Source: Lachnoanaerobaculum sp. ICM7 (GTDB lineage Bacteria; Bacillota; Clostridia; Lachnospirales; Lachnospiraceae). From it: DNA of 49,677 nt. Position numbers and translations under genes: made by a program. This document shows positions 29,642 through 36,179 of this stretch, piece by piece. The DNA lies in NCBI RefSeq assembly GCF_000287675.1, contig NZ_ALJL01000020.1, positions 1 through 49,677 on the forward strand, in the 5' to 3' direction. The notes under the pieces are model-generated. The model was not told the DNA's origin. It saw nothing but the letters and a program-made list of their open reading frames with translations, and did not search any database. Positions within the stretch are counted from its first letter, which is position 1. Every line of letters begins with the position of its first letter.

Positions 29642-30697
29642 ATGAAAAAGAGCAAAAAAAGTATGGCTGTAATTATGGCATTACTTGCGGCAACATTCTA
29701 TGCGATAAATACTCCTTTTTCTAAAGTACTTTTGAAAAATGTTACACCGACATTTATGGCTTCATTTTTGTATCTGGGAGCCGGTATCGGTGTAGGTATA
29801 ATGTATCTGTTTAATTCAAAAAGAGAGAAGAATATTGAAAAGCTGTCAAAGACAGACTTGCCATATACTCTAGGGATGATTGTTCTTGATATTTTGGCAC
29901 CTATATTTTTAATGATCGGAATAAATATAGGTTCGGCTTCAAATGCATCATTACTTGGAAACTTTGAAATCGTAGTGACCACACTCATCGCTCTTTTGAT
30001 ATTCAAAGAGGTTGTAACATCAAGGCTGTGGCTTGCCATAGGATTTATTACATTATCAAGCATAGTTCTATCATTTGAAGGAAGCGAAAGTTTTAAATTC
30101 TCTTTGGGCTCATTGTTTGTAATACTTGCAACATGTTGTTGGGGACTTGAAAACAACTGTACAAGAATGATTTCGGAAAAGAGTACTTATGAGATAGTAA
30201 TATTAAAAGGAATATTTTCAGGTACAGGTTCATTTATAATTGCAATAATACTTGGGGAGTGGATACCGGATATAAAATATATTTTGATTTCAATGTTGCT
30301 TGGGTTTGTGGCATATGGTCTCAGTATATTTTTATATATCAGGGCACAAAGAGATTTGGGAGCCGCAAAAACAAGTGCATATTATGCAATAGCTCCTTTT
30401 ATAGGTACATTCTTATCATTTGTGGTAGACGGTGACAGATTGACAGAAGTTTATTTTATCGGACTTATATTTATGATAATAGGAAGCGTGATTGTTGTAT
30501 ATGATACGATGTTAAAAAATCATATTCATTACCATATACATACGATTGTTCATACACATAACGGCTCAACACATAAGCATGTAATTAAGCATGAGCATAC
30601 TCACTCTCATTTGGTTTCAGAAGAAAAACATTCTCACAGTCATGATGATTATATAAACAGTGTGGAGCATAAGAGGATGCATGAGACGGGTGTGTAG
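29642..30697 (+). CDS. EamA/DMT-family transporter with histidine-rich C-terminal tail
   Basis: Ten predicted membrane helices in two EamA repeats (about 8-145 and 160-290), 351 residues. The last 55 residues form a hydrophilic tail with about 20 His, in patterns such as HNHIHYHIH, THKH and HTHSH. Such tails bind Ni, Co, Zn or Cu in other transporters and chaperones, which suggests a metal-linked role; most DMT proteins carry metabolites, so the substrate is unsure. Last gene of the alkD run; its stop codon is six bases before the Rrf2 operator. Confidence 0.85.
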   Translation: MKKSKKSMAVIMALLAATFYAINTPFSKVLLKNVTPTFMASFLYLGAGIGVGIMYLFNSKREKNIEKLSKTDLPYTLGMIVLDILAPIFLMIGINIGSASNASLLGNFEIVVTTLIALLIFKEVVTSRLWLAIGFITLSSIVLSFEGSESFKFSLGSLFVILATCCWGLENNCTRMISEKSTYEIVILKGIFSGTGSFIIAIILGEWIPDIKYILISMLLGFVAYGLSIFLYIRAQRDLGAAKTSAYYAIAPFIGTFLSFVVDGDRLTEVYFIGLIFMIIGSVIVVYDTMLKNHIHYHIHTIVHTHNGSTHKHVIKHEHTHSHLVSEEKHSHSHDDYINSVEHKRMHETGV

Positions 30698-30703
30698 ATT
30701 TAT

Positions 30704-30746
30704 ATTTAATGTAAATGTTGACATTACATTAAATAGGTTATATTAT
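30704..30746 (+). promoter_or_regulatory. Rrf2 gene promoter with overlapping palindromic operator
   Basis: A perfect inverted repeat has arms ATTTAATGTAA (30704-30714) and TTACATTAAAT (30724-30734) with a nine-base spacer. It covers the -35 of a strong promoter: TTGACA (30718-30723), 17 bases, TATTAT (30741-30746). This is a classic layout for autorepression by the regulator that follows. Confidence 0.82.
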
Positions 30747-30769
30747 TTTACTAAAAAAGGAGTATACAA

Positions 30770-31201
30770 ATGCAGATATCCAGCAGATTTACAATAGCAT
30801 TACATATTTTTGCATGTGTAGAATATTTTAAAGATAAAGAGAAGATAACCAGTGACTTTCTGTCAGGCAGTATAAGATCAAATCCTGTAATTATCAGGAA
30901 CATTCTTTCTCAGTTAAAGAAAGCCGGGCTTATAAATGTAGTCAGAGGAACCGGAGGTATAGAGATTTTAAAAGATCCGTCTGAGATAACATTTTACGAT
31001 GTTTATAAGGCGGTTGAAGCAGTCAAAGAAGAGGGACTGTTTCATTTCCATGAGGAGCCGAATCCTGCTTGCCCTGTGGGAAAAAATATACATAGAATAT
31101 TGGACGGTAAGCTTAGTGAAATACAGGAAGCGATGGAAAACAAGATGAAAAGCTATACTCTTTTGGATATTGAAAAGGGTATTAAAGAGATTAAAGACTA
31201 A
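30770..31201 (+). CDS. Rrf2-family transcriptional regulator
   Basis: 143-residue winged-helix DNA-binding protein of the Rrf2 family. The N-terminus MQISSRFTIALHIFACVEY and the wing stretch RGTGGIEIL are typical. There is one mid-protein cysteine in NPACPVG plus one in helix 1, not the three-Cys set of iron-sulfur members such as IscR or NsrR, so it is closer to the YwnA/CymR/HypR type and might sense thiol state or a small molecule. Its own promoter and that of the next operon carry the same operator core. Confidence 0.9.
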   Translation: MQISSRFTIALHIFACVEYFKDKEKITSDFLSGSIRSNPVIIRNILSQLKKAGLINVVRGTGGIEILKDPSEITFYDVYKAVEAVKEEGLFHFHEEPNPACPVGKNIHRILDGKLSEIQEAMENKMKSYTLLDIEKGIKEIKD

Positions 31202-31228
31202 AAGATGCTTATAACAGGCATCTTTTTT
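31201..31228 (+). terminator. Terminator after the Rrf2 gene
   Basis: AAAGATGC ... GCATCTTTTTT; it overlaps the stop codon end. It separates rrf2 from the macrodomain operon, which has its own promoter. Confidence 0.85.
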
Positions 31229-31239
31229 AATATAAAGTA

Positions 31240-31271
31240 TTGACAAGTTTGATGTAATATTTTATATTACA
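31240..31271 (+). promoter_or_regulatory. Macrodomain-Nudix-SirTM operon promoter with second Rrf2-type operator
   Basis: TTGACA (31240-31245), 17 bases, TATATT (31263-31268). The palindrome TGTAATAT-TTT-ATATTACA (31253-31271) covers the -10. Aligned on centres with the site before the Rrf2 gene, both have TTTnATGTAA, three free bases, then TTnAnATTACA. Confidence 0.8.
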
Positions 31272-31305
31272 ACTATCATGTGTTCTGTTTTTGAAGGAGG
31301 CAAGT

Positions 31306-32118
31306 ATGAATCAAAATGAAAGACTTGATTATCTCATAGAAGCTTTTAAAGAAGATTCCGTAGAGTATAAGAACTTAAAAGTACCTGTAGATACAGAAGG
31401 GAAGAAAAGAATACTGCGTTCTCTTATGAATATCAGAATGCCAAGGGAAATGAATACTGAGGTATTAAAAATACAAGATGAATATCTTAGAGAAGCTATA
31501 AATGAAAACGGTATAGTATATCTTTCGGATATAGATACAGTGGAAGATAATATCTCTATATGGCAGGGAGATATTACAAGGTTAAAGGTGGATGCAATAG
31601 TTAATGCTGCAAACTCACAGATGCTCGGTTGCTTTATTCCTATGCATACCTGTATTGATAATTGTATACATACATTTGCCGGTGTGGAGCTTAGAAATGA
31701 ATGTAACAAAAAAATGAACCGGCTAAGGATTCGTTATGGCAGGGATTATGAACAACCTACAGCAATTCCTATGCTCACAGATGCTTACAATCTTCCCGCA
31801 AAAAAGATTGTTCATATAGTCGGCCCTATTGTACAAGGGGGACTTAGCAAAAGGAATGAGGAAGATCTTAAAAACTGTTATAAAAACACTTTAGATCTTT
31901 GCGTTGAAAACAGATTGAGAAGCGTGGCATTTTGCTGTATATCTACCGGAGTATTTCATTTTCCGAATAAAATGGCGGCAGAAATTGCAGTAGCAACTGT
32001 AAGAGAATGGTTAAAAGAAAATCAAGGCAAAATTGATAGAATAATATTTAATGTATTTAAGGATGAGGATAAGAAATATTACGAGAGGGAACTATGGATA
32101 AAAAAGAATGTTGGTTAA
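31306..32118 (+). CDS. Zinc-type macrodomain protein (ADP-ribosyl hydrolase)
   Basis: 270 residues. A helical N-terminal part (1-85) is followed by a macrodomain (about 90-265). The ADP-ribose-binding stretch is VNAANSQMLG (Asn100, Asn103), followed by Cys109, His114 and Cys116 in GCFIPMHTCIDN. This is the zinc-binding insertion of the Zn-Macro class that removes the modification made by SirTM. The later loop CISTGVFHFP binds phosphate. Start is the ATG after AAGGAGG; an in-frame ATG at 31291 lies upstream of that site. It overlaps the Nudix gene by 25 bases, suggesting coupled translation. In staphylococci and streptococci this gene and SirTM sit with gcvH-L and lplA2; neither is here. Confidence 0.92.
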   Translation: MNQNERLDYLIEAFKEDSVEYKNLKVPVDTEGKKRILRSLMNIRMPREMNTEVLKIQDEYLREAINENGIVYLSDIDTVEDNISIWQGDITRLKVDAIVNAANSQMLGCFIPMHTCIDNCIHTFAGVELRNECNKKMNRLRIRYGRDYEQPTAIPMLTDAYNLPAKKIVHIVGPIVQGGLSKRNEEDLKNCYKNTLDLCVENRLRSVAFCCISTGVFHFPNKMAAEIAVATVREWLKENQGKIDRIIFNVFKDEDKKYYERELWIKKNVG

Positions 32119-32714
32119 AGTGGGCAATAGAATTACAAAGTCTGGCACAGATAGGTCTTAATTATTGTAAAGATATATATGATAAAGAAAGATATCAGAG
32201 GATTAGAGATATTTCTGCAGAAATAGTTTCATTTATGACAGATATTCCAAATATGAAAGTTAAAGATCTTTTCTGCAATGAAAGTGGTTATCAGACACCA
32301 AAACTTGACACCAGAGCCGCCATTTTTAAAGATGAAAAAATTCTTCTTGTACATGAAAATGACGGCAAATGGTCTTTACCCGGAGGATGGGTGGATGTTA
32401 ATGTATCAGTAGGCGAAAATGTAGTAAAAGAGGTTAAGGAAGAATCAGGGTTGGATGTTATCACAGAGAAAGTAATAGCGATTCAAGACAGATCAAAACA
32501 TAATCTACCCGTCTATGCATATGGAATATGTAAAATTTTTGTCCAATGTTCTGTAATTGGTGGTAAATTTGAAGAGAATAATGAAACGACGGAATATCGT
32601 TATTTTTCAATATCAGAATTACCTGAACTGGCAACAGAGAAAAATACTGTAGAACAAATCAAAATGTGTTTTGAGGCTTATAAATCAGATAATTGGAAAA
32701 CATTATTGGATTAA
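32094..32714 (+). CDS. Nudix hydrolase with N-terminal domain (ADP-ribose or similar substrate)
   Basis: 206 residues. Residues 1-65 match the small helical N-domain found in some Nudix enzymes acting on ADP-ribose or CDP-choline. The Nudix box spans 97-120: GGWVDVNVSVGENVV then KEVKEESGL, with the first conserved Glu absent, as is usual in this subgroup (GGWxDV), and Lys112 in place of Arg. The metal-binding Glu113, Glu116 and Glu117 are kept. It lies between the macrodomain and SirTM genes, so cleaving free ADP-ribose released by the macrodomain is a sensible inference. Confidence 0.88.
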   Translation: MDKKECWLKWAIELQSLAQIGLNYCKDIYDKERYQRIRDISAEIVSFMTDIPNMKVKDLFCNESGYQTPKLDTRAAIFKDEKILLVHENDGKWSLPGGWVDVNVSVGENVVKEVKEESGLDVITEKVIAIQDRSKHNLPVYAYGICKIFVQCSVIGGKFEENNETTEYRYFSISELPELATEKNTVEQIKMCFEAYKSDNWKTLLD

Positions 32715-32748
32715 TTATTTTAGAAAATTCACAGAAAGGATCAGAACT

Positions 32749-33741
32749 ATGGATATTGAAGTTTTAAAAATATCTGACGGTTACAGAGAGTCTATCAGCA
32801 AAGGAATAGCTGCAATACAGTATTTTAAGGGCAGAGTCAATTATGGAACCGGCGACAGAGAAGAGCAGTTACAAAGATTAAAGAATGAAATTAGAAGTTG
32901 TGATGCAATTTTGATTGGAGCCGGTGCAGGTCTCTCCACATCTGCAGGATTATCATACTCCGGTGAGAGATTTGATAAGTATTTCTTTGATTTTGGAAAG
33001 GCTTTCGGTATAAAAGATATATATTCAGGCGGTTTTTATCCGTTTCCTGAAAAAGAGATATTTTGGGCATGGTGGGCAAGGCATATTTATTTTAACAGAT
33101 ATGTTGATGCGCCAAAACCTGTATATAAGGACTTATTTAACTTGGTTAAGGATAAGGACTATTTTGTAATTACCACAAATGTAGACCATCAGTTTCAAAG
33201 AGCAGGATTTGATAAGAAAAGACTTTTCTACACTCAGGGAGATTACGGACTTTTTCAAAGTACAAATCCGGATTGTAAAGTTACCTTTGATAATAAGGAG
33301 TGGGTAGAAAAAGCCTTAAAAGCACAGGGATTTATTCAAGATGAGAGCGGTGTATTTATAGTACCTAATGATAGAGAGATTATTATGGAAATACCTACTG
33401 ACCTTATACCGAAGACTCCAACCGGTGATAATGTGACTACAAATCTTCGAGCTGATGATACTTTCGTAGAGGATGAAGGCTGGCATAATGCTTCAAGTAA
33501 TTATGCTGATTTTATAAGAAGACATGAAAACTTGCATATACTCTTTTTGGAACTTGGAGTAGGAGCAAATACACCTGTTATCATAAAATATCCTTTTTGG
33601 CAGATGACATATGACAATAAAAAGGCGGTATATGCCTGTTTAAATTATGGAGAAGCCTTCTGCCCTGAGAAGATAAATGATAGAAGTATATGTATTGACG
33701 GGGATATTGGTGAAATTCTGTCACAGATTAAAGAAAAGTAA
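32749..33741 (+). CDS. SirTM-class sirtuin, protein ADP-ribosyltransferase
   Basis: 330 residues from the ATG after AAAGGA; the in-frame ATG at 32671 lies inside the Nudix gene. NAD site GAGAGLSTSAG at 57-67; Asn144 and Asp146 in ITTNVDHQF. Where ordinary deacylase sirtuins have the catalytic His-Gly, this protein has Gln163-Gly (TQGDYG), the mark of SirTM enzymes that transfer ADP-ribose to lipoylated carrier protein in staphylococci and streptococci. The target here is unknown because no GcvH or lipoate ligase gene is in the operon. 34 bases after the Nudix gene. Confidence 0.92.
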   Translation: MDIEVLKISDGYRESISKGIAAIQYFKGRVNYGTGDREEQLQRLKNEIRSCDAILIGAGAGLSTSAGLSYSGERFDKYFFDFGKAFGIKDIYSGGFYPFPEKEIFWAWWARHIYFNRYVDAPKPVYKDLFNLVKDKDYFVITTNVDHQFQRAGFDKKRLFYTQGDYGLFQSTNPDCKVTFDNKEWVEKALKAQGFIQDESGVFIVPNDREIIMEIPTDLIPKTPTGDNVTTNLRADDTFVEDEGWHNASSNYADFIRRHENLHILFLELGVGANTPVIIKYPFWQMTYDNKKAVYACLNYGEAFCPEKINDRSICIDGDIGEILSQIKEK

Positions 33742-33772
33742 TAGTTATAAGGCTACTTTATTACAGATATAA

Positions 33773-33898
33773 TATCCTTTTTGGCAGATGACATATGACA
33801 ATCAAAAAGCGATATATGCCTGTTTAAATTATGGAGAAGTCTTTTATCCGGAAATTCTTAATGACAGAAGTGTACCCCATCAAATCAACAGAAGTTAA
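33773..33898 (+). pseudogene. Remnant of a second SirTM C-terminus
   Basis: This 126-base stretch reads as a 41-codon C-terminal piece of SirTM, from YPFWQMTYDNQKAIYACL to a stop at 33896. It parallels the intact gene at about 33590-33690. DNA identity is high, and several changes are silent or conservative (Val to Ile, Phe kept). It diverges after NDRS. There is no start codon or upstream part, so it is a leftover of a tandem or recombined gene copy. Confidence 0.8.
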
Positions 33899-33936
33899 TA
33901 ATATCTTTATGCAAATCTTTTCTTAAATTTTAAAAA

Positions 33937-33975
33937 AAGTGTACTAAGCAGTATAGAATCAGGCTTAGTACACTT
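33937..33975 (-). terminator. Terminator of the malolactic gene
   Basis: AAGTGTACTAAGC pairs exactly with GCTTAGTACACTT. On the minus strand it is followed by seven T. It also separates the SirTM operon from the convergent gene. Confidence 0.88.
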
Positions 33976-34001
33976 CATTCCTGTGTTATTTAATTAATAT
34001 T

Positions 34002-35624
34002 TTAGTAGTTCGGGTACCACTTTAAGTCATGAACCGCTTTTGCCATATCTGTTTCTTGTGAACGGGCAAGACCTTGTTCTTGTGCTTTTTTAGCTACCGC
34101 TTCGGCAACTTTAATAGAAACATCGGCTACATACTTAAATGGTGGTAAGACAGGTGCACCGGCTTGCCCGGGATTTACAATACCACTCAATGAATGTGCG
34201 GCTGCTCCAATCATTTCATCTGTCAAAAGACTTGCTTCAGAGGCCAACATACCAAGTCCAAGACCCGGATAGATCAAGGCATTATTAGCCTGGCCAATAA
34301 TATAGTCCACACCTTTATAAGAAACGGTACCGGAAGGAATTCCCGTTGCAACAAATGCTTTTCCGTCCGACCATTCAATTAAATCTTTAGCACTTGCTTC
34401 TGCCAGAATTGTAGGGTTTGAGAGAGGGAAGATCATTGGACGTTCGGTATTCTTACACATAGCTTCTACAATTTCTTTAGTGAAAGTATTAGGTTGAGTT
34501 GAAGTTCCTACAAGAATAGTCGGCTTGACTGTCTTCACCACTTCCAAAAGATCTGTCAACTTATCTGCATTAGCAAAGTCTGAACGCTTCTTGGCAAAAG
34601 GCTTTTGCTCAGGGGTTAAGTCTTCCATGTCATCAAAGAGAAGACCTTGTTTATCAACCATAAAGAAGCGTTTATAGGCTTCTTCTTCTGATAGACCTTG
34701 ATTTATCATTTCACGTAAAACACGAGAGGCAATTCCTGCTCCGGCAGTACCGCCACCATAACAGAGATAAATTTGATCCGTTAATTTTTCACCGGTAATA
34801 TCAAGAGAACCGAAGATACCTCCCAAAGTTACAATTCCTGTACCCTGAATATCATCATTAAATGTTGGAATTTGTTTACGATATTTTTCAAGGATATTTG
34901 CAGCATTTAAGCGACCGAAATCTTCCCAGTGAAGATAGAGCTTAGGAAATAAACGTTCTGCAGTTTTGACAAATTGGTCAATGAAGTTGTAGTAACGATC
35001 ACCACGGACACGTTCGTGACGATTTCCTAAATAATTTGGATTGTTCCGAAGTTCGTCACGGTTAGTACCTGCATCAATAACTAAAGGAAGCACCATAGAA
35101 GGATCGATCCCTGCTGCAGCAGTATAAACCATCAATTTTCCAACAGAAATATCCACACCGTTTGTTCCCCAGTCACCAATACCAAGTATTCCTTCTGCAT
35201 CTGTTACAACAATCAAACGAATCTCACGTTCACCCGCCGCATTTTTTAAAGTATCCTCTATATTTTCAGGGTGGTTAATATCCAAATATCCGGCGTACTG
35301 AGGATTTACAAAGAGATCACTATAACCTTCAATAGAATCTGCAATAGTCGGGTCATACACAATAGGATTGAATTCTTCCAAATGTTGAGAAAAAAGGTAA
35401 TAGAAAAGTGTACGATTTGTATTAAAGATTTCCATCAAAAAAATTCTTTTTTCCAAATCATTTACCTTTGTTTGCATTTGTGCATAAGTTTGCGCCGCCT
35501 GTTCTTCAATAGTTTGAACATAAGGCGGCAACAGTCCAATCAGCCCAAGTTTTTTACGTTCCTCCAATGTAAAGGCAGTTCCTTTATTAAGGAAAGGGTT
35601 ATTTAAAATATCATGTGCAGTCAT
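34002..35624 (-). CDS. mleS: Malolactic enzyme (NAD-malic enzyme family)
   Basis: Decarboxylates L-malate to L-lactate and CO2 using bound NAD and Mn2+; raises internal pH and gives acid tolerance in lactic bacteria. 540 residues. The start [18 protein letters not shown] and stretches such as [16 protein letters not shown] and [13 protein letters not shown] closely resemble streptococcal and lactobacillar MleS. Arginine codons CGT and CGA are frequent, unlike the AGA-rich neighbours, which points to transfer. The ATG at 35624 follows AAAGGAGG, so it is translated on its own although the frame is open into the upstream transporter remnant. No malate permease gene is present. Confidence 0.93.
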
Positions 35625-36179
35625 AATAATACCTCCTTTTGTACACGATAATTTTTCTCTTTCTAACCAAGCCATTAATGCTGACAGAAAAATTGAAATT
35701 GCAATAATAATTGTCATAGTGGCCGCAGTTTTATCTGCAAATACAGCCAAAAGCACTGACGGTACAACGCCGCTTCCATATTGGAGGGATCCTAAGAGGG
35801 CTGCGGCAGAACCTGACATATCACTTGATACAGTATTTAGTGCGGCGGCATTTGCACATGCCGCAACGATTCCGTTCATACTGAATACCAAAAACATAGG
35901 TATAACAATTCCTAACAGTCCAAATGAATGTGTTACTCCCATTATAGCCAAAATCACAGAAAAAATAAAGGCCGGAGAAGTTGATATGGCAAGAAGCCGG
36001 CTTATATTAACAAGTGCAAATCCGATAACAAAACCTGTTACAGTCAATTCCGCACGACCTCCTAAATCCGCCTGCATAGAAGGCATAGCAGGTAAATAAA
36101 TATCGGTTGACAAAGATGTAAATGCCATAAAAGCACTTAAGATAATCAAAAAAGATAGCGATGTTTTTTCCTTATTCAT
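35625..36179 (-). pseudogene. Gutted Bcr/CflA-type MFS transporter fused in frame upstream of mleS
   Basis: About 185 residues. The first 50 match the start of Bcr/CflA drug transporters ([30 protein letters not shown]). The rest matches the last helices of the same family ([21 protein letters not shown]). The middle, roughly helices 3 to 8, is missing with the frame kept; after GFVIGFA the usual WGPxSDRxGRR loop is absent. The 3' end runs in frame through the mleS ribosome site into mleS with no stop. The first ATG has no good ribosome site. It probably lost transport function; a 725-residue hybrid is possible but unlikely. Confidence 0.75.

Follow-up and report, generated by a model that had tools for sequence, protein, structure and literature searches.

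A SifR-type operator sequence shared by an Rrf2 regulator gene and a macrodomain–Nudix–SirTM operon in Lachnoanaerobaculum sp. ICM7

The window, by which we mean the whole 49,677-nucleotide stretch of DNA from Lachnoanaerobaculum sp. ICM7 that was analysed (contig NZ_ALJL01000020.1), contains a gene for a predicted Rrf2-family repressor and, behind it, a putative operon for a zinc-containing macrodomain (Zn-macrodomain) protein, a Nudix hydrolase and a class M sirtuin (SirTM). The features of this locus are as follows.

30705..30733, no strand: operator 1, 29-bp inverted repeat TTTAATGTAA-N9-TTACATTAAA with its core at 30710-30728, overlapping the rrf2 -35
30718..30746, plus strand: putative rrf2 promoter, TTGACA-17-TATTAT, by consensus match only
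30770..31201, plus strand: predicted Rrf2-family repressor of SifR/YwnA type, 143 aa (Pfam Rrf2; HEEPNPAC101PVG)
31202..31228, plus strand: terminator-like hairpin AAGATGC/GCATCTT with a T run, found by eye between rrf2 and the operon
31240..31268, plus strand: putative macro-nudix-sirTM promoter, TTGACA-17-TATATT, by consensus match only
31248..31271, no strand: operator 2, core TGTAATATTTTATATTACA at 31253-31271, over the promoter spacer and -10
31306..32118, plus strand: Zn-macrodomain protein (predicted protein-ADP-ribose hydrolase), 270 aa, ATG at 31306, above the NF003163 cut-off
32094..32714, plus strand: Nudix hydrolase, 206 aa, CDP-Chase-like (Nudix_N and NUDIX)
32749..33741, plus strand: predicted SirTM, 330 aa, matching 5a3a (E 3e-42)
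33761..33874, plus strand: 3′-terminal remnant of a second SirTM, with 74% identity to residues 277-314

The sirtuin has no match in Pfam or NCBIfam at E 1e-3 and is recognised by its similarity to the SirTM crystal sequence 5a3a. In its TQGDYG motif Q163-G164 replaces HG and is aligned to the QG of 5a3a, and a change of the catalytic HG to QG defines SirTM in the available text of PMC4518038. Q163, G164, N144 and D146 are invariant in 23 aligned rows. Judged by the QG motif and the linked macrodomain gene, the window protein is predicted to be a SirTM. The macrodomain protein scores 317.6 bits against NF003163 (cut-off 272), its best PDB matches are 8rsi and 5kiv, and C109, H114 and C116, which we take to be the zinc ligands, are invariant across 15 rows; full-length homology together with the zinc-binding motif in the catalytic loop places it among predicted Zn-macrodomain proteins. 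The macrodomain gene lies upstream of sirTM in the window, and macrodomain matches occur in most of 80 SirTM loci, some of which have none or are ended by a contig end.

A first-pass annotation of this DNA had stated that gcvH-L and lplA2 are part of the known SirTM operons and that a Nudix gene takes their place here. Neither gene is among the typed ORFs of 27.5-37 kb, as that annotation had said, and the GcvH family has no match in the whole genome. The premise, however, is not supported, since independent SirTM/macrodomain operons have already been described, with Lachnospiraceae named among their holders in the available text of PMC4518038. As far as the available parts of PMC4518038 and PMC11490716 go, these lone pairs have the same zinc-motif macrodomain adjoining a QG-type sirtuin and, like the window operon, are without gcvH-L or lplA2, whereas the window operon has in addition a Nudix gene between the two and a SifR-type operator in front. 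The extended SirTM operon of Staphylococcaceae and Lactobacillales likewise combines SirTM, a Zn-macrodomain protein and redox partners (there OYE and LLM) but carries the gcvH-L and lplA2 that the window operon lacks. In the available parts of the same two papers "Rrf2" does not occur, and Nudix is absent from PMC11490716 and appears in PMC4518038 within a reference title only.

The presence of the Nudix gene allows the operon to be read as a closed cycle in which SirTM would write, the Zn-macrodomain protein would erase and the Nudix enzyme would hydrolyse the released ADP-ribose or trim the protein-bound form. The Nudix gene does overlap the macrodomain gene, with sirTM close behind, the best PDB match of its product, 3o8s, is labelled ADP-ribose pyrophosphatase, and the available part of the reference list of PMC4518038 includes work on Nudix hydrolases processing protein ADP-ribosylation. 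However, 3o8s is listed without a determined function, and homology points to CDP-Chase of Bacillus cereus (3q1p, 6nch, 6nci), the best characterised relative, which has the same Nudix_N and NUDIX domains and aligns along nearly the full length; CDP-Chase comes from a different genomic setting, and its own substrate is CDP-choline, ADP-ribose being hydrolysed but called suboptimal. The gene, moreover, is an insertion seen in this genus only, being present in four of its six genomes and, by tblastn, in 3 of 160 SirTM loci, all from congeners. Because the enzyme is genus-restricted and resembles a protein that handles ADP-ribose poorly, the proposed recycling of ADP-ribose is unsupported, and we regard the closed cycle as unlikely; confinement to the genus also rules out the Nudix gene as a general stand-in for gcvH-L and lplA2. 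The enzyme appears to have been added to the operon recently, and ADP-ribose may or may not be among its substrates.

The window contains exactly two copies of TTTNATGTAANNNTTNANATTACA (30705-30728 and 31248-31271), and no further copy appears when up to two mismatches are allowed; in 100 shuffled windows there were on average 0.03 matches, and none of the 100 had two. The 19-bp cores (30710-30728 and 31253-31271) are 543 bases apart, and both match TGTAA-N9-TTACA in sequence. The two putative promoters, with 11 of 12 consensus matches each, are the top two of the 15 pairs listed within 30500-34000, a scan that overall gave no excess over shuffles (mean 17.0). From the positions of these promoters relative to the cores it follows that site 1 overlaps the -35 of the rrf2 promoter and site 2 covers the -10 of the operon promoter, in agreement with the first-pass annotation, which had placed one palindromic core at both promoters in this way. 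The hairpin between rrf2 and the operon has a loop of 9, beyond the limit of 3-8 in the hairpin scan, and was hence not listed by it; an Rfam search of the window gave no match reaching gathering scores.

The operator is conserved at SirTM loci of other genomes. We examined 80 loci from 78 genomes, two of which contributed two loci each (set 1: the top SirTM matches together with two congeners whose SirTM is broken, with four congener loci and one near relative, L067, among them), and a further 73 loci (set 2: 80 minus seven near-duplicates of set 1), nine of which had no SirTM recognised by the gene caller and were kept in the motif counts but left out of the gene-context listing. With a spacer of 9 the motif occurs 47 times in set 1, as against 0-6 times for every other spacer from 0 to 20, and 35 times in set 2 (0-4 for other spacers). 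It is present at all 20 Rrf2-linked loci and at 7 of the 60 loci without a linked Rrf2 gene in set 1 (p 2.5e-13) and at 13 of 15 and 11 of 58, respectively, in set 2 (p 2e-6), and the exact core lies immediately 5′ of rrf2 in 15 of the 20 Rrf2-linked loci of set 1; 53 of 80 and 47 of 73 loci have neither a linked Rrf2 gene nor the motif. Two sites are retained in all of the close relatives L062-L067, the counterpart of operator 2 lying upstream of macro in L063, L064 and L067 and of a SnoaL gene in L062 and L065. Sharing of an operator by rrf2 and the SirTM operon is thus borne out by sequence conservation in many other genomes. Where a SifR-like protein is encoded elsewhere in the genome, 4 of 16 SirTM runs carry a site, compared with 1 of 44 in genomes that gave no such match (p 0.015); since 12 of the 16 are without a site, this link is not universal.

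Elsewhere in the ICM7 genome (G000) the bare 19-bp core matches at 29 places, versus 6 for a reversed-pattern control, and 22 of the 29 matches fall inside called ORFs, so that the core by itself lacks specificity here and was discarded as a finder of regulon members. Three of the seven intergenic matches fit an operator in context, namely the two window sites and one on another contig (G000:C28:63528), the remaining four being in L147, L152, L153 and L169. This third site precedes an operon for a SnoaL protein and a flavin/[4Fe-4S] protein (PPOX-Fd); in this genome and in G189 the gene order is SnoaL then PPOX-Fd, with the operator lying 84 bp upstream. PPOX-Fd genes also lie inside SirTM operons in relatives, and among the genomes of the family 57 of 60 with PPOX-Fd have SirTM, compared with 119 of 250 overall (p 7e-19), where the SirTM counts, made at E 1e-25, take in relatives of about 30% identity, some of which may be sirtuins of another kind. 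At E 1e-25, 62 of the 119 SirTM-positive genomes, congener G001 included, gave no PPOX-Fd match in a search that in most genomes scored the best 12 first-look candidates and may have missed some; PPOX-Fd therefore cannot be the sole target. Where PPOX-Fd is unlinked, the exact site lies upstream of its run in only 4 of 20 stretches, in 15 of which the gene caller recognised PPOX-Fd.

These distributions bear on a rival reading, plain autoregulation, in which the Rrf2 protein would bind its own promoter only and site 2 would be a roleless leftover of a joint operon or a local duplication. Autoregulation alone would indeed predict the motif at Rrf2-linked loci; four loci (L130, L141, L181, L228) consist of a single run of rrf2 and macro-sirTM under one site, from which a second site could arise as a by-product, and the site 2 core is AT-rich within a low-GC intergenic stretch. 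Against this, both sites are kept in L062-L067 despite different genes following site 2, a site immediately precedes Macro or SirTM at loci that have no Rrf2 gene (L079, L104, L229, L230, L233, L238, L249), and the third site lies in trans and recurs in G189, and we consider plain autoregulation improbable. The third site equally rules out the idea of a regulator dedicated to the SirTM operon, as does the fact that its class is a known one (SifR/YwnA). What stands of the first-pass annotation is the shared, conserved operator; the gcvH-L/Nudix replacement, the recycling and the dedicated regulator do not.

The best PDB matches of the Rrf2 protein are 1ylf and 1xd7 (YwnA). The available text of PMC9218516 describes SifR of Streptococcus pneumoniae as a monothiol quinone sensor with the operator TGTAA-N9-TTACA and gives as class signature HxxPNPxC, whose conserved Cys occupies the N-cap position of alpha 5. 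All 21 aligned rows have Cys101, and 13 of them, the window protein (HEEPNPAC101) included, match the full signature exactly; the only other cysteine of the window protein, Cys16, is absent from the Rrf2 proteins of L073, L106 and L129. Because the operator is identical to the published SifR/HypR core and HxxPNPxC is present, we assign the window protein, as a prediction, to the SifR/YwnA monothiol class; it is not HypR of Staphylococcus, scoring 45.7 bits against the NF041852 equivalog (cut-off 180). A signal of the kind that IscR or NsrR responds to (iron, Fe-S status or nitric oxide) would suit the Rrf2 family in general and the iron-related genes among SifR targets (PMC9218516, available text), but is very unlikely given an invariant Cys101 and a Cys16 that some rows lack, which leave no three-Cys cluster site, and a signature and operator that match SifR.

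The SifR regulon and the egtU operon, as presented in the available parts of PMC9218516 and PMC9732360, include a SnoaL-type gene, a YwnB-like reductase and an EgtU/OpuC-type transporter, all of which also neighbour SirTM in relatives. The EgtU-like neighbour, which those relatives have and the window has not, is a fused permease/binding protein of 512 aa that matches, in order, 8dp6 (titled osmoprotection protein), choline/nicotine sensor scaffolds and EgtUC (9o5f). Among the pneumococcal SifR targets, in contrast, no SirTM or macrodomain is named, and "ADP-ribos" has no occurrence in the available text of PMC9218516. A literature search found no published link between SirTM and Rrf2 or HxlR regulation; the S. 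aureus sirTM operon is named beside the quinone/thiol regulators QsrR and HypR, with no regulatory link, in the available text of PMC12710355.

From the genes, the motif and its conservation, the regulator class and the co-occurrence with PPOX-Fd, we infer binding, quinone sensing and a target in the following model of an electrophile-responsive SirTM regulon of SifR type, which we consider probable. A reduced Rrf2 dimer would occupy TGTAA-N9-TTACA over its own -35, over the -10 of macro-nudix-sirTM and at the third site, before the SnoaL/PPOX-2[4Fe-4S] operon. Once a quinone-like electrophile had formed an adduct with Cys101, the dimer would leave the DNA, and SirTM (the writer), the Zn-macrodomain protein (the eraser) and redox partners would be induced together. 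SirTM may then mono-ADP-ribosylate one of the regulon's redox proteins, the best candidate being the PPOX-Fd flavin/ferredoxin protein, and the Zn-macrodomain protein would reverse the modification. SirTM and its eraser appear to be switched on through a quinone-sensor-type repressor, with redox genes elsewhere in the genome. If true, this would tie bacterial ADP-ribosylation to quinone and electrophile stress in anaerobic gut-type bacteria, at least one of them without the lipoyl carrier GcvH, and give a lead on when SirTM/eraser gene pairs act and which proteins they might tag; with the repressor class, the operator and a few co-regulated proteins defined, signal, promoter and substrate become testable.

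A broader and decidedly more speculative proposal, to which we give little credence as yet, is that lone SirTM/Zn-macrodomain pairs are in general the effector arm of a quinone response, guarded alternately by two cysteine repressors of unrelated type, SifR-like Rrf2 or CPV-type HxlR, with a PPOX-2[4Fe-4S] target replacing the lipoyl-GcvH-L of staphylococci and streptococci. Other relatives do have, in the place of Rrf2, an HxlR regulator with an N-terminal cysteine (22 of 26 set 1 members aligned). Mutual exclusion of Rrf2 and HxlR in set 2 is not significant (15 and 5 of 73 loci, none with both, p 0.58). On a quick FastTree of SirTM there are 14 changes between the Rrf2/site and HxlR labels over 78 rows (the 63 unlabelled ones among 141 rows were excluded), versus a mean of 24 and a minimum of 19 in 100 label shuffles, which indicates repeated regulator exchange on a clustered background. 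GTTAC-N6-GTAAC, which we would guess to be bound by HxlR, occurs in 9 of 29 stretches upstream at HxlR loci, and in none with each other spacer from 0 to 15.

The first-pass annotation had placed an Rrf2-type regulator and an operon for a class M sirtuin (SirTM, an ADP-ribosyltransferase), its zinc-macrodomain eraser and a Nudix enzyme under one shared operator, and the positions it claimed for both promoters and both operators hold. The genes concerned are as follows.

30770-31201, rrf2, the regulator gene
31202-31228, hairpin followed by a T run (read by eye)
31306-32118, macro, first gene of the operon
32094-32714, nudix, second gene of the operon
32749-33741, sirTM, third gene of the operon

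The nearest named relatives of the encoded SirTM are those of Butyrivibrio, [Clostridium] aminophilum, Pseudobutyrivibrio and Lachnospira (71-76% identity). With up to two mismatches allowed, the full motif occurs at only two places in the 49.7 kb (shuffles average 0.03), one before rrf2 and one before macro. The bare 19-bp core, TGTAA-N9-TTACA, matches 29 times (22 within called ORFs, 7 intergenic) in the whole 2.78-Mb ICM7 genome (G000; assembly 98.6% complete), versus 6 times for the reversed pattern. Because the bare core is frequent and lies mostly in ORFs, we took conservation in relatives as the main test. We note that a longer perfect inverted repeat, ATCATATGTAAAT...ATTTACATATGAT, at the intergenic position G000:C15:26384 is probably a different operator.

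PMC9218516 describes SifR/YwnA proteins as a third Rrf2 class with a single conserved cysteine in HxxPNPxC, an operator of the form TGTAA-N9-TTACA, and release from DNA upon quinone adduction. The Rrf2 protein of the window carries the signature HEEPNPAC101PVG, its closest solved structures are 1ylf and YwnA (1xd7), and comparison with NCBIfam did not identify it as HypR. Cys101 is invariant in all 21 rows of our Rrf2 alignment, the exact HxxPNPxC being present in 13 of the 21, and Cys16 is absent from three rows. Across 250 genomes of the family, SirTM is found in 44 of the 54 that encode a SifR-like Rrf2 (E 1e-25) versus 119 of 250 overall (p 1e-8).

In 80 SirTM loci from relatives (set 1, L062-L141; 1.07 Mb in total, window excluded), TGTAA-N9-TTACA occurs 47 times, and the same half-sites at every other spacer from 0 to 20 occur 0-6 times. 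A search for the operator at Rrf2-linked SirTM loci, proposed by the first-pass annotation as a check, came out in its favor: the motif is present in 20 of 20 loci with a linked Rrf2 versus 7 of 60 without (Fisher 2.5e-13). In 15 of these 20 the exact core directly precedes rrf2; the others have either a weaker match upstream of rrf2 or an exact site before a neighboring gene. A second set of 80 loci, drawn from titled genome contigs and reduced to 73 by removal of near-duplicates, gave 35 occurrences at spacer 9 versus 0-4 at other spacers, and the motif in 13/15 Rrf2-linked versus 11/58 other loci (p 2e-6). Sites precede rrf2 in Eggerthia (locus L191), Pseudoscardovia (L189) and an Oscillospiraceae bin (L181), and precede SirTM in an Atopobiaceae bin (L233). 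Judged by record titles, several of which denote metagenome bins and are possibly misassigned, the motif extends past the family of the window. Of the 82 sites, 67 have a recognized gene that gives their orientation, and these are alike outside the core too, mostly reading [AG][AT]-TGTAA-Y-N-A-TTGA-N-A-TTACA-[AT]C.

A repressor of the SifR/YwnA class would have this motif for autoregulation alone, and sites before SirTM runs therefore weigh more. Both sites are kept in four congeners (G005, G002, G001, G003) and a further relative (G189), and two sites are also present in the congener G004; in G005 and G003, rrf2 and macro are separated by SnoaL-EgtU-like-ATPase genes and the second site precedes SnoaL. 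Other loci (L079, L104, L229, L230, L233, L238 and L249) have no Rrf2, yet a site stands directly before Macro or SirTM. Of the 60 set-1 loci without a linked Rrf2, 16 belong to genomes that encode a SifR-like protein elsewhere and 44 to genomes in which none was found (E 1e-25); a site occurs in the SirTM run of four of the former versus one of the latter (p 0.015), and that single site (L136) falls within a coding sequence. L094, which is among the four, additionally carries an HxlR gene in divergent orientation, and no site was found in the SirTM run of the other 12. Neither Rrf2 nor the motif is present in 53/80 set-1 and 47/73 set-2 loci. Control of SirTM loci through the operator is thus predicted to be common, not universal.

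Regulators of the HxlR family, assigned by Pfam on one representative, are encoded in 26 of 80 set-1 loci, none of which has Rrf2 (p 1.7e-4); set 2 has them in 5 of 73 (L188, L222, L223, L239, L243), again none with Rrf2, at a level that is not significant (p 0.58). HxlR genes near Rrf2-less SirTM runs are mostly divergent. The TGTAA-N9-TTACA core appears in two of the 26 set-1 HxlR loci (L094, L136) and one of the five in set 2 (L188). Upstream stretches of HxlR loci carry GTTAC-N6-GTAAC in 9 of 29 cases, and 0 carry it with any other spacer from 0 to 15. Of 22 set-1 members aligned (from 26), 21 have an N-terminal Cys and 20 a CPV motif, a cysteine that we take to be reminiscent of the quinone sensors YodB and QsrR. 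In a quick SirTM tree of 78 rows, the Rrf2/site and HxlR labels swap at least 14 times (shuffle mean 24).

A third promoter-type site in the ICM7 genome (G000:C28:63528) precedes a SnoaL-like gene by 84 bp, and this gene is followed by one for a 207-aa protein with a PNPOx_N domain and two [4Fe-4S] motifs (PPOX-Fd). The arrangement recurs in G189, where the site stands at equal distance, and in other genera PPOX-Fd genes lie within SirTM runs. Of the 250 family genomes, 60 encode PPOX-Fd and 57 of these also encode SirTM (p 7e-19; both at E 1e-25). In 20 further stretches where PPOX-Fd lies away from SirTM, an exact site is found upstream of the PPOX-Fd run in four (L253, L254, L258, L264) and an HxlR gene beside PPOX-Fd instead in five (L266, L268, L270, L271, L272), four of which have EgtU/OpuC-type transporter genes behind; the remaining stretches have neither exact site nor HxlR. 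The transporter near SirTM in relatives belongs to the EgtU/OpuC kind, with ergothioneine as a possible substrate; none was found in G000 at E 1e-40. An independent parallel comes from the pneumococcus, whose egtU operon includes a SnoaL2 gene and is reported to be partly under SifR control (PMC9732360). A fused permease/binding-protein ABC transporter of EgtU/OpuC type is seen inside SirTM operons (L062, 3457-6621; L065, L066, L077, L129, L136) and behind PPOX-Fd in stretches without SirTM (L267, L271, L272).

A search for GcvH-family proteins came up empty in both G000 and G001. The lipoyl-GcvH-L route used by staphylococci and streptococci is therefore unlikely to operate in G000, barring absence of the gene from the 98.6%-complete assembly; four congeners have short, weak GcvH matches, two of them barely above the cut-off. 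Linkage, co-regulation and co-occurrence make PPOX-Fd the best candidate substrate of SirTM. It cannot be the only one, since G001 and 61 further genomes with SirTM yielded no PPOX-Fd at the cut-off applied (E 1e-25). Building on the genes, operators, regulator class, conservation and co-occurrence observed here, we propose that reduced Rrf2 would repress, that an electrophile at Cys101 would release it and induce its targets jointly, and that a redox partner would then be ADP-ribosylated, a modification that the Zn-macro protein would reverse. The SirTM/Zn-macro pair and the SifR/YwnA class are each already known; among open-licence papers we did not find in print their union in a single regulon, an alternation with HxlR, or PPOX-Fd as a partner.

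The recycling role first assigned to the Nudix enzyme fares less well. Its gene lies within the operon in the window and in G005, G002 and G003; G001 and G004 yielded no homologue, and tblastn over 160 fetched SirTM loci recovered it in those three congeners only. Its closest solved relatives are 3o8s, which its depositors named an ADP-ribose pyrophosphatase and which PMC5389931 lists as undetermined, and CDP-Chase, for which ADP-ribose is a suboptimal substrate according to PMC6384729. ADP-ribose recycling is therefore possible but unsupported, and the Nudix gene stands outside the conserved SirTM module.

In part of the genus the module appears to be undergoing decay, with the writer perhaps lost first. 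SirTM is broken in G003 (locus L065; two pieces) and G004 (L066; short pieces), and rrf2, two operators and transporter genes persist in both despite this. L065 retains full-length macro and nudix and has a shortened SnoaL; in L066 macro and nudix were not found. Directly behind sirTM in the window, 33761-33874 is a remnant of a second SirTM 3′ end, and further SirTM fragments lie behind SirTM in L064 (G001), L108, L121 and L130, which suggests that tandem duplication and decay have occurred repeatedly. Upstream of rrf2, an EamA-type transporter (29642-30697) has a His-rich C-terminal tail (HIHYHIHTIVHTHNG...HSHSHDD) that is possibly metal-binding. On the minus strand, a malic enzyme ORF (34002-36179) has a long N-terminal extension in the same frame with the look of a membrane protein; Pfam found only malic enzyme domains, the malic domain starting at residue 253, and the extension is possibly a truncated transporter fused to the enzyme.
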